From Utricularia gibba (Eukaryota > Streptophyta > Magnoliopsida > Lamiales > Lentibulariaceae), in assembly GCA_002189035.1 (NCBI GenBank), contig CM007991.1, forward strand, positions 4,960,001 through 5,024,000: DNA of 64,000 bases, in the 5' to 3' direction. The translations under genes were made by a program, and so were the position numbers. Numbering within the stretch: position 1 is the first letter of the stretch; each line of letters opens with the position of its first letter. A model generated the notes under the pieces. That model ran no database searches, was not told the DNA's origin, and saw only the letters and a program-made list of their open reading frames with translations. Below are positions 29,584 through 33,691 of this stretch, in pieces.

Positions 29584-30906
29584 CTACAATTTGATGGGCA
29601 GGGAGTGCATCGTCTGGTTCCCTGTTCTCATCACGCGTCTGCTTGAAAGTGTCTTGTGTGTGAATCCGTACATTTGCAGAATCTGGTTGTCCCCGAAGTT
29701 GAAGGCACGTTCCATCTGTTTCAGGCATCTCTCAACCGGGTAATCTCCAAATCTCCCACAAGGCTTGCACCCAACAAAATGAGTCACCAGAGGCCACCGA
29801 TGATCACCCAACCCAGGATGGAACTTCTCCATCATTTCCTCGTACCTATCTACCAAAACTCCCCAATACCCATGAAGATAGTATGAATTTTCGAGATAAA
29901 CCTTGTCTCCCCACTTTTCCCTCTGTGTCGCCAGTATGTACACCATTGCAGACTGATCATCAGCTTCGAAAACAGGCCTATCCTTCAGCTCCCTTGTCAA
30001 AAGCTTACCAGCTTCCTCTCTCATCTTTCCCTTAGCTCCCATTGGTGCCAACGCATCAACAATATCCAATGACCACTGACAATTTCTCAACAGAAAACTT
30101 CCTGTGTTTAAACCAAGCCAACTCTTCTCATCATAGACCAACTCATTCCATCCATGCATCACAAGATTGTGATTCTTATATCTCTCCCATGGCACCTCAA
30201 AGGCCATGTCAGTGAACATAGCATCACTATCCATCCACCACAAAAACTCTACTTCCGGGTGCAACAACAGAAGCTTCCGAATCAAGGGCAACTTAGCCCA
30301 AAAACCAGACATTTCGGCTTCTAGCAAAGCCATATTATAGAAAATATTGAATCCATGAAGCCTACAATAATCAATCTTGTTCTTAAGGGACTTGAGCAGG
30401 TAATGATCACCCACCGGATTTTCACATGGTTTGGGTGAGGAACCAGTAACCAATAACACCCTGGGCTTACCCGGTGCAATATAATTTCGAAAATTTGGAT
30501 TCTTTTTAAGCCATTCGCCCCTTTGCTCATCCCAATTGGATATTTCATGGGCAATAGTAGCATGCTGTTGAGCCTCCGATTCATGCCTCTGAAAATCCTC
30601 ATCCTCGTCATCTTCATCCACAAAGAATTTTGATGCATCAAATTCAGCATAGTTATTGCCCCCAGGTTCTTGAGCACCAACTAATGCTGCCTTAAACATA
30701 TGCCGCGACTCCGTCCGACGGCGAATGTAGGAAAAAGTTTGTCGGATGTCCTCGAGATCTTGCTCCGGCGTCCCAAATTTACCGCCCCCGAGATATCCAC
30801 GAAACATTAACAAGGTAAGGAATAGACAGAAGAAGGTCAGCCTACAGTTGCGTAGAAGGCGCCGAAGCTGTCGGACTCGTCGAGGGCCAAGCAGCCGGTC
30901 CAGCAT
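29584..30906 (-). CDS. XXT2: Xyloglucan 6-xylosyltransferase (GT34), XXT1/XXT2 type
   Basis: An intronless frame of 440 residues. It is a Golgi type II membrane protein: short basic cytoplasmic tail, one membrane segment at about residues 21-39 (CRLTFFCLFLTLLMFRGYLG), an acidic stem (about 95-105), then the GT34 domain. Seen in the domain are PRVLLVTGSSPKPCENPVGD, the metal-binding DxD motif in WWMDSDAMF (Asp226 and Asp228), GLNTGSFLLRN, FEADDQSAMVY, LHGYWG and HFVGCKPCGRFGDYPVERC. The family transfers xylose from UDP-xylose to the glucan backbone of xyloglucan. The KFGTPEQDLEDIRQ stem motif points to XXT1/XXT2 rather than XXT3-5; which of the two is not decided. The C-terminus ends about 20 residues earlier than Arabidopsis XXT1. 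Confidence 0.93.
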   Translation of the reverse strand: MLDRLLGPRRVRQLRRLLRNCRLTFFCLFLTLLMFRGYLGGGKFGTPEQDLEDIRQTFSYIRRRTESRHMFKAALVGAQEPGGNNYAEFDASKFFVDEDDEDEDFQRHESEAQQHATIAHEISNWDEQRGEWLKKNPNFRNYIAPGKPRVLLVTGSSPKPCENPVGDHYLLKSLKNKIDYCRLHGFNIFYNMALLEAEMSGFWAKLPLIRKLLLLHPEVEFLWWMDSDAMFTDMAFEVPWERYKNHNLVMHGWNELVYDEKSWLGLNTGSFLLRNCQWSLDIVDALAPMGAKGKMREEAGKLLTRELKDRPVFEADDQSAMVYILATQREKWGDKVYLENSYYLHGYWGVLVDRYEEMMEKFHPGLGDHRWPLVTHFVGCKPCGRFGDYPVERCLKQMERAFNFGDNQILQMYGFTHKTLSSRRVMRTGNQTMHSLPIKL

Positions 30907-31424
30907 TGTTGTGTCCAGATCTCCAGTGTGGATGAAAAATGGAAAGGGCGAGCGAATTCGAGAATTGCGGGCTTCAAGGACAGCAATGGGCTTAGTGAAT
31001 CACATCAACAAACTGGAGACAGGGAGCTTGGAATCGAATGATTAACTGAAGGTGGGTCACCGCGGAAGACATGTGTCGGTGGAGGGTGGATTGTGCGACG
31101 TTGGAAGACGATCGGACAAGAAAACAATCGCCAGAGCAAGAACAACATTTAAGTTAATAAAATCATTTGCATTTCAAAGGAGTTTCAGTGGCAGTTGGGC
31201 TGGACGGCCCACAACATTGGTTTGGTTTGGTAAAGCCCCGGAAGATTGGCAGTTGGCACAGAGGCCGATGAGACGCTTTCCACAATCAAATGATTTAATT
31301 GATCACCAGCACCCATTTCTATGCGAGCATTCAGATAGAGAGAGAGACAGAGCCTCCGGAGCTCACTCATATAATTAGGCGGGCCGGCCGGCCGGCCTTC
31401 CTTATTCTCTGCTCTACTCATGTA
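30907..31424. promoter_or_regulatory. Divergent promoter region between XXT and ESD4-like genes
   Basis: The start codons of the two genes face away from each other across 518 bp, so 5' UTRs and both promoters must share this stretch. It holds a GGCCGGCCGGCCGGCC palindrome at about 31382-31397, close to the protease start. No clear TATA box was assigned to either side. Confidence 0.55.
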
Positions 31425-32392
31425 ATGGGGAACTGTCAGGGGAGCTGTCTCGGATTTTGGCCAAGGAAGGGTCTTGCAATCGCAGATCAATCCGCCGTTT
31501 TGCTTGATGCTTCTGATGGCAAGGACAAGCATGGTTGTTCAGTATTGGATGAGTTTGTTATCGAACAATCCTTTGGCAGTTCAGGTCTTAAGGACAAGGA
31601 GTTGCTAATTGCTGCCTGGAGCAACCCTGTTGGGTACTACTACCTTTAAGAAATAAGGTCAACGTGGTATCTCTTGCTTCCTAATTCTCCCTGATCCACT
31701 CGAAATCTTCTTGCAGGGAACAAGTTCTGGTGACTCATGCCAATTCCTGTTGGACGGTGATGTTGAAACTGAGAAAAATCAGAAGCACCAGGGACCTGAG
31801 GCAGAAGAGCGTGAGCCGAAGGGAAACGATGCGAGGGAGGAAAACTATCGCAGAAAGTCCATCACCAGAAATCAGAGGTAAAATGCAGACACTGGACTTA
31901 TTGTTATGGGCCCAATAAACAGTATACCAGGTCATATATGCAAGCAGAAGTTCGTTGAGCCCTGCAATGTCCCAAGCCCAATCCAGTAGAGAGCATCCTC
32001 TCCCACGAGATGACCGTTCTGCTGAAGGAGAACAGAAACAGAAATTCTCAGAGGATAAGATATCGCGAATCACACAGCCTAACGGCTATTTTTCTGTTCT
32101 ATAAATATGGCTTCGTTGTAAAGGAGAAAAATGCTATTTTTGTAGCTGAAAAACCTCAATACAATATCCAAATCTCCAACAACATCCATTCTCAAACAGC
32201 AACATCAGCAAAATTATCCTGTCAACCCTCATTACCACATTGGAAATCATCTATTCTACCACTGACCTTATTCAGACTTCCAATAATTCCAACATTGACA
32301 TTACCGCAGACGCATTGCGGTGCTTGATGCCAGGACAATGGCTTGGTGATGAGGTAAGGGATTTTGGTATATTCGTTTCATTGATCCCACAC

Positions 32393-32432
<40 letters not shown>

Positions 32433-33691
32433 GGGGTAGAAGCTAATGCTGGAGCGTTGTTGAGGTGCAGGTGATAAATGTATACCTTTCATTGTTGAAA
32501 GAAAGAGAAGAAAGGGAGCCTCACAAATTCCTCAGATGCCATTTCTTTAACACCTTCTTCTATAAGAAGGTCGCCGCTCACTGTCGTTGATTATCATCAT
32601 TTTAAATTAGATGATAATGAAGGTTCTTATGTTGGCAACTTTTCATCTCCCTTCACAATTCATCTACCTTGTTTTCCCTCTTCTTCGTGTTTTGTTGATG
32701 TTTTGGTTTTTGTATGGTTCAGTAATGCCTGTTGAATGGTCTTTGTTTTCAGCTTGTCGGGAATGGAATCTATAACTACCAATCCGTTAAAAGATGGACC
32801 ACCAAGCTTGGATATAACCCCCTTTTAGACTGTCATAAGGTAATTATTTAGTAACGCTCTGGACACACCAGTTGTGGATATACAAAAAAAGCTTCATTTT
32901 TCTACAATGCCATGACCAGGGTTAGTTTTGAACGGGGCGGGCTTCTTTGAAATGTTGTTATTTATTTCGTCACATATCGACCAGATTTTTATCCCCGTGC
33001 ATCGTGGATGCCATTGGTCTCTGGCCATCATAAACAACGACGATAGAAAGTTTCAGTATTTAGATTCACTCCACGGAAGTGATGGTGGGGTGCTGAATGC
33101 ACTGGTACGCTTGCTTTTTCATGTTTAATTTTGTTCCAAGGATTAGATTTAGTGCGACATCGCACAAGGAGACGAGAGAGGCCTGTTATCCTGGTGATTT
33201 GCTACCTGGAAATGCCTGTTTTCCGCGGCAGAACATTTCCCCTAGAGACTCTGATCTGTTTGCTGTCAATCCCTTAGTCTTTCTCACGAATCCAGGCCCG
33301 TTACTACGTTGATGAGGCAAGGGATAAGAATGTTCTCAAAGAAATCGATGTCAGTACATGGATTAAAGAAGTCGTGAAAAGCATTCCGGCCCAGGAAAAC
33401 GGGTTAGTGCTTGCTGTGGGTTCACTATAATTCGTAGGTCTTGTGTTTAGATGATCCCTGTTGTTGGTCAGGTATGACTGCGGCATGTTCATGATAAAAT
33501 ATGTTGATACCTCCTGTCGCAGATCTTCGAGGTTTTGGTTCACACAGGTCATCTTCTCTTCCAGAGATCCTTTTTTTTTTTTTTTTTTCCCGTAGCATGA
33601 TGACTTGTTTCGTTTTGCTTGGCTGCAGCGGCAGATTCCATACTTGAGGGACAAGACGGCTCTGGAGATCCTAAAACTAAAAGCTGAATGA
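31425..33691 (+). CDS. Ulp1/ESD4-like SUMO protease (C48), exon 2 split by an LTR
   Basis: Exons 31425-31633, 31717-31747 plus 32291-32353, 32471-32569, 32753-32839, 32985-33104, 33296-33402, 33472-33547 and 33629-33691. All introns are GT-AG. Leaving out the LTR gives 284 residues. The C48 domain shows NIDITADALRCL-MPGQWLGDEVINVYLSLLKERE, CHFFNTFFYKK, GCHWSLAIIN (catalytic His173), YLDS (Asp190) and NGYDCGMFMIKY (Cys242), ending LRDKTALEILKLKAE as in ESD4. The family removes SUMO from proteins in the nucleus. The ~70-residue N-terminus (MGNCQGSC...) is much shorter than ESD4's, and its assignment to this gene is inferred. The LTR adds an in-frame stop at about 31914, so this allele probably cannot make the full enzyme. 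Confidence 0.82.
31748..32285 (+). mobile_element. 538-bp solo LTR inside a protease exon
   Basis: Starts TGTTGGACGG and ends CTTCCAATA (near-inverted TGTTGG/CCAATA). It is flanked by ATTCC at 31743-31747 and 32286-32290. A TATAAATA box at about 32100 fits an LTR promoter in plus orientation. Skipping it plus one ATTCC joins THANS directly to NIDIT, exactly where ESD4-type proteins are continuous. Confidence 0.88.
32394..32440 (+). repeat. GGTATG microsatellite in protease intron
   Basis: About six TATGGG units in a row followed by a TAGGGG variant, within the intron between 32354 and 32470. Confidence 0.85.

Follow-up and report, generated by a model that had tools for sequence, protein, structure and literature searches.

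In a 64 kb stretch of the Utricularia gibba genome (G000:C3:4960001-5024000; hereafter the window, by which we mean the whole stretch of DNA analysed), the gene for a putative SUMO protease of the ESD4 class is interrupted in its second exon by a 538 bp solo LTR of a Ty1-copia family. We consider it highly probable that a copia element inserted into exon 2, was reduced to a solo LTR and left a null allele of the protease; this would be a new example of an ordinary kind of mutation, with an inferred knockout. The locus offers a clean natural candidate knockout of a putative SUMO protease, and it shows members of a young Ty1-copia family inserting into the bodies of host genes within a very small genome, the long-read genome of U. 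gibba being put at 101 Mb in PMC6265445. A literature search, with most subscription journals outside its reach, found no paper on this locus. The gene comprises eight exons on the + strand (31425–33691), all seven introns being GT...AG, and is laid out as follows.

31425–31633, + strand: exon 1 of the ESD4-like SUMO protease gene, MGNCQGSCLGFW...SNPVG, with an MGNC start and a frame open to the GT donor
31717–31747, + strand: exon 2 upstream of the LTR (EQVLVTHANS), ending in the left ATTCC
31743–31747, no strand: left copy of the target-site duplication ATTCC, identical with the last 5 bases of the preceding feature
31748–32285 (538 bp), + strand, sense to the protease gene: solo LTR of a Ty1-copia family, from the family copies and the TATA position
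32286–32290, no strand: right copy of the target-site duplication ATTCC, abutting the LTR end
32286–32353, + strand: exon 2 downstream of the LTR (NIDITADALRCLMPGQWLGDE from 32291), joined to the pre-LTR part in the paralogues C413 and C4
32471–32569, + strand: exon 3, with the same intron position in the paralogues
32753–32839, + strand: exon 4, from the reading frame and the paralogue comparison
32985–33104, + strand: exon 5, with the catalytic His and Asp (PVHRGCHWSL, FQYLDS), from the reading frame and the SENP2/SENP1 alignment
33296–33402, + strand: exon 6, ending PAQENG, with the catalytic Gln, from the reading frame and the SENP2/SENP1 alignment
33472–33547, + strand: exon 7, with the catalytic Cys (YDCGMF), from the reading frame and the SENP2/SENP1 alignment
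33629–33691, + strand: exon 8 and stop, from the reading frame

The initial annotation had described a 538 bp block, TGTTGG...CCAATA, between two copies of ATTCC, and direct reading of the sequence gives exactly these coordinates: the LTR starts TGTTGGACGG (TGTTGG), finishes ACTTCCAATA (CCAATA) and has ATTCC flush at both ends. Allowing up to 3 mismatches, the left duplication together with the LTR start has a single occurrence in the window, and it was seen in none of 100 shuffles. No further LTR copies were found in the 64 kb window, where there were just three matches of 15–20 bases, and Rfam and tRNA scans of the window gave no match. In the 100.09 Mb assembly (516 contigs), moreover, the 5′ portion of the locus (31100–31760) had neither a duplicate nor an empty allele.

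A search of the same assembly with the LTR as query, in which the copy counts are lower bounds, returned at least 14 matches, ten of them at 91–100% identity with the window copy counted and four at 74–85%. Beyond the window there are at least nine LTRs at 91–99% identity, four from two full-length Ty1-copia elements (C1:317410-322939 and C1:6949757-6955310, two LTRs apiece) and five solos, the window copy being a sixth; because of these relatives elsewhere in the assembly, the block at 31748–32285 is to be read as a solo LTR and not as an intron. One of the full-length relatives, read in four pieces, matched copia gag, gag-pre-integrase, integrase core and RVT_2, its integrase preceding the reverse transcriptase in the copia order, and both full-length elements keep a single uninterrupted frame (1536 and 1529 codons). 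A perfect 5 bp target-site duplication was found at seven of the eight insertions, namely at five solos by exact match and at both full-length elements (TGACC and ACTCC), and the eighth, the solo at C1:629927, has 4 of 5 bases as judged by eye. These copies, domains and duplications show that the block is a solo LTR, as had been proposed from its letters alone. The copies end in CCAATA in nine of ten cases and in CCATTA in one, and so do not have the canonical TG...CA ends. LTRs usually end in TG...CA, and non-canonical ends occur in plant LTR elements, so that TG...CA is usual for Ty1-copia and not defining; paper searches found no literature source for non-canonical plant LTR ends. Two older relatives, at 74–85% identity, were also seen at G000:C317:1220161-1225147 and C505:2657593-2658524, one of them apparently a full-length pair.

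The nearest relative of the window LTR is the 3′ LTR of C1:6949757-6955310, from which it differs at 4 of 538 positions, and the changes private to the window copy number 3 in 538. The LTR pairs within the two full-length relatives differ at 6/533 and 5/509 positions. Plant substitution rates run from 7e-9 to 1.3e-8 per site per year. At such general plant rates, uncalibrated for this plant, the window copy and both LTR pairs point to about 0.4–0.8 million years, and by this measure the insertion is young, which supports the recent origin suggested for it at the outset.

The identity of the host gene was assessed from its translated exons. The His, Asp, Gln and Cys of the window protease line up with those of SENP2 and SENP1, in agreement with the catalytic residues first reported for it, and the Peptidase_C48 profile matches over exon 5 above the cut-off. 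Where the 98 homologues recovered carry specific names, these are ESD4, ULP1A, ULP1B, Ulp1 peptidase or sentrin-specific protease; none of the 98, many of which are nameless, was named as coming from Utricularia, and the best match is 63% identical. In a tree of 44 rows (41 of the 98 homologues, the window protein and C413 and C4, two ESD4-class proteins of the same genome), the window protein groups with plant ESD4/ULP1A/B proteins and pairs with Genlisea P0071 (SH-aLRT 86), near Erythranthe P0001, its deeper placement being weak. The deep tree is unreliable because C413 and C4 group beside a Senna protein (89) and not with Lamiales. These data show the window gene to be a putative ESD4-class (C48) SUMO protease.

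The MGNC start of window exon 1 is shared with Erythranthe P0001 and P0002. Among the 84 homologues that start with M, 15 short ESD4-like plant proteases begin MGxxxS, and the eight of these 15 with a named source are all from monocots; this start, which we take to resemble an N-myristoylation signal, could mark a membrane-bound protease class. In the window and Erythranthe proteins, which start with MGNC, residue 6 is G, unlike in MGxxxS. Immediately upstream, ATGTAATG at 31420–31427 contains a start-stop ATGTAA that overlaps the presumed start codon of the protease and could be a minimal upstream ORF, provided that it lies within the transcript. Intron 2 carries a GGTATG hexamer array of 7.7 copies (32393–32438) shortly past the exon 2 donor, and 29584–30906 of the window holds an open gene for a xyloglucan 6-xylosyltransferase, which has a single exon and is oriented divergently from the protease; the best among the matches listed for this transferase are Lamiales proteins.

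When the block is removed together with one ATTCC, the flanks join as EQVLVTHANS-NIDITADALRCL, just as the initial annotation had stated, and the frame is open over the eight exons for 284 residues plus stop. The exon that was hit is indeed a conserved one: the insertion point lies inside a single contiguous exon in both C413 and C4, the homologues agree, and the other intron positions in these two genes match those of the window gene. An intron exactly at the site, looked for at the DNA level in these two paralogues, was absent from both. Comparison of the catalytic codons with those of C413 gave 48, 45 and 107 differences at codon positions 1, 2 and 3 respectively (dN 0.29, dS saturated), as would fit a coding sequence kept for long under purifying selection.

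We suggest that a Ty1-copia retrotransposon, of which the LTR, target duplication and family can be read directly, inserted in sense orientation into exon 2 of an ESD4-class SUMO protease gene that would until then have worked, or nearly so, and that ATTCC was duplicated in the process. Recombination between two LTRs is the standard route to a solo LTR, and the solo structure suggests that the two LTRs of this element recombined in the same way, with deletion of the internal region and one LTR left behind. A message reading through the retained LTR would gain 56 extra codons and then meet an in-frame stop, and the allele is most likely null because this stop precedes every catalytic residue; the transcript would probably be degraded or ended within the LTR. 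Loss of the protease may have been tolerable because two other ESD4-class genes remain with open catalytic exons, from which we infer redundancy.

Insertions of the same family elsewhere give some view of how such events proceed. The full-length element at C1:6949757-6955310 (L058/L059) runs antisense to its host, a copy of a cytochrome b561/DOMON gene, and interrupts one of its coding exons; DUF568 is matched in one flank, Genlisea and Erythranthe proteins match both sides, and the best among the matches listed for the DOMON protein is from Genlisea. Two paralogues on the same contig with approximately 94% DNA identity, L061 and L062, both have the site empty, so the insertion mechanism is visible here, the flank alignments overlapping by as many bases as the target duplication has (5 bp) in L062 and by 1 bp in L061. 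The L061 exon is contiguous across the site, as in the Genlisea and Erythranthe proteins, and its junction G run is one longer than in L062 or the joined element copy. Because the joined site, like L062, is one base short relative to L061, the element-bearing copy may have been frameshifted before the insertion, or the missing base may be an assembly error, and we would take this site as a good picture of the insertion mechanism and not as a clean second knockout. A frame of 390 codons across the joined flanks was rejected, as it crosses the upstream intron in a shifted frame. The other full-length element, C1:317410-322939 (L056/L057), has a seed-maturation-protein open frame on either side of it, both of them on the opposite strand, and is probably in an intron of that gene because no joined frame of at least 60 codons crosses it on the seed-maturation-protein strand. 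For the flanks we scanned 20 chosen frames, drawn from up to six frames of at least 80 codons per flank. One other solo is nested in a copia element whose gag and Pol_BBD frames abut it, and two more have a reverse-transcriptase remnant nearby, at approximately 0.9 and 1.2 kb respectively, the remnant at 1.2 kb falling just under the Pfam cut-off. The solos at C402 and C1:629927 had no match in the flank frames scanned, and NCBIfam gave none on four flank frames.

The alternative that survives best is that this protease copy was already decaying when the LTR landed, the LTR being a passenger and not the cause of the loss, and we regard this as unlikely. It bears on the original description of an otherwise intact gene with a single lesion, which stands as far as the other exons, free of stops and frameshifts, and their GT...AG splice sites are concerned, but has to be tempered by a changed motif and a fast branch. 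The end branch of the window protein is 0.46, compared with 0.096 for C413 and 0.099 for C4; however, that of Genlisea P0071 is longer still at 0.9, so the fast evolution looks lineage-wide. The window protein reads WLGDE where 71 of the 98 homologues have WLNDE (WLNDD in three, WLDDQ in one, WLGDE in one and absent from 22), yet this is no proof of decay because the sole other WLGDE, that of Rosa protein P0054, occurs in the same set. The short, weakly conserved exon 1 and the possible earlier frameshift in the DOMON copy also fit prior decay, whereas the third-position excess in the comparison with C413 argues against it.

We next consider removal of the LTR as a newborn intron, in which its terminal CAG and a cryptic donor in the exon or the LTR would leave a working protease altered by only a few residues at the margin of its catalytic domain; we judge such an outcome to be very unlikely. 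A splice scan using approximate weight tables found 17 GT-AG pairs that keep the frame open. The exonic donor at 31730 (CTG|GTGACT) with the acceptor at 32275 (CAG|ACT), near the LTR end, yields EQVL-TSNNS-NIDIT and a protein with one residue fewer than that of the empty site, and the donor at 31757 with the same acceptor adds 8 residues. The scores of both sites lie inside the range spanned by the splice sites of the gene itself. When the LTR was shuffled 400 times with its dinucleotides preserved, 11 shuffles matched or beat the near-clean pair 31730/32275, and 123 of the 400 had no near-clean pair at all. Any in-frame pair equalling the overall best was seen in 3 of 400, the overall best being 31878/32333, which deletes the start of the catalytic domain. 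These results are suggestive and no evidence of splicing; a near-clean in-frame splice can be drawn on paper, but a spliced, working gene is unlikely. The 31730 donor lies in coding sequence, the scores are middling, the acceptor is simply LTR sequence present in eight of ten copies, and the window copy has gained a donor at 31878 and lost one at 32055, which has the look of neutral turnover. We dropped the idea that selection had favoured the private G-to-T change at 31879 for making a new donor: with all three private sites set to the letter of the other copies, the best LTR donor scores 8.31, against 8.17 in the window, and the private change at 32055 removes an equally good donor.

A sense LTR might also act as a promoter for a short transcript of the catalytic exons, and TATAAATA, a TATA box at 32100, is in sense orientation and lies 186 bp before exon 2 resumes. 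Against this, following the open frame from the final stop of the LTR into exon 2 meets no ATG until the Met of LMPGQWL, and the catalytic domain alone of ESD4 and of ELS1 did not work in vitro, according to a review (PMC6759571); such a promoter role appears highly improbable. A reading of the block as an assembly error or a normal intron, with end repeats that arose by chance, is practically refuted, since its ends match a retrotransposon family and C413 and C4 are contiguous at the site, even if GT...AG pairs can be found inside it.

The locus can be set beside three known systems. Compared with the class I SUMO proteases ESD4, ELS1 and ELS2 (C48), the window gene has the same catalytic domain and residues, and intron positions shared with the plant's own ESD4-class genes, but it is broken by the LTR, has a short MGNC N-terminus as in Erythranthe and carries WLGDE in place of WLNDE. 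Like the sister insertion in the DOMON gene, it involves the same LTR family inside a coding exon with empty paralogous sites, whereas the sister element is full-length, antisense and in one of three near-identical gene copies. As with plant Ty1-copia solo LTRs in general, there is a 5 bp target duplication, the internal region is gone and copia gag, integrase and RVT_2 are present, in copia order, in a full-length relative; unlike them, the window family, placed in Ty1-copia without a finer lineage, ends TG...TA and not TG...CA.
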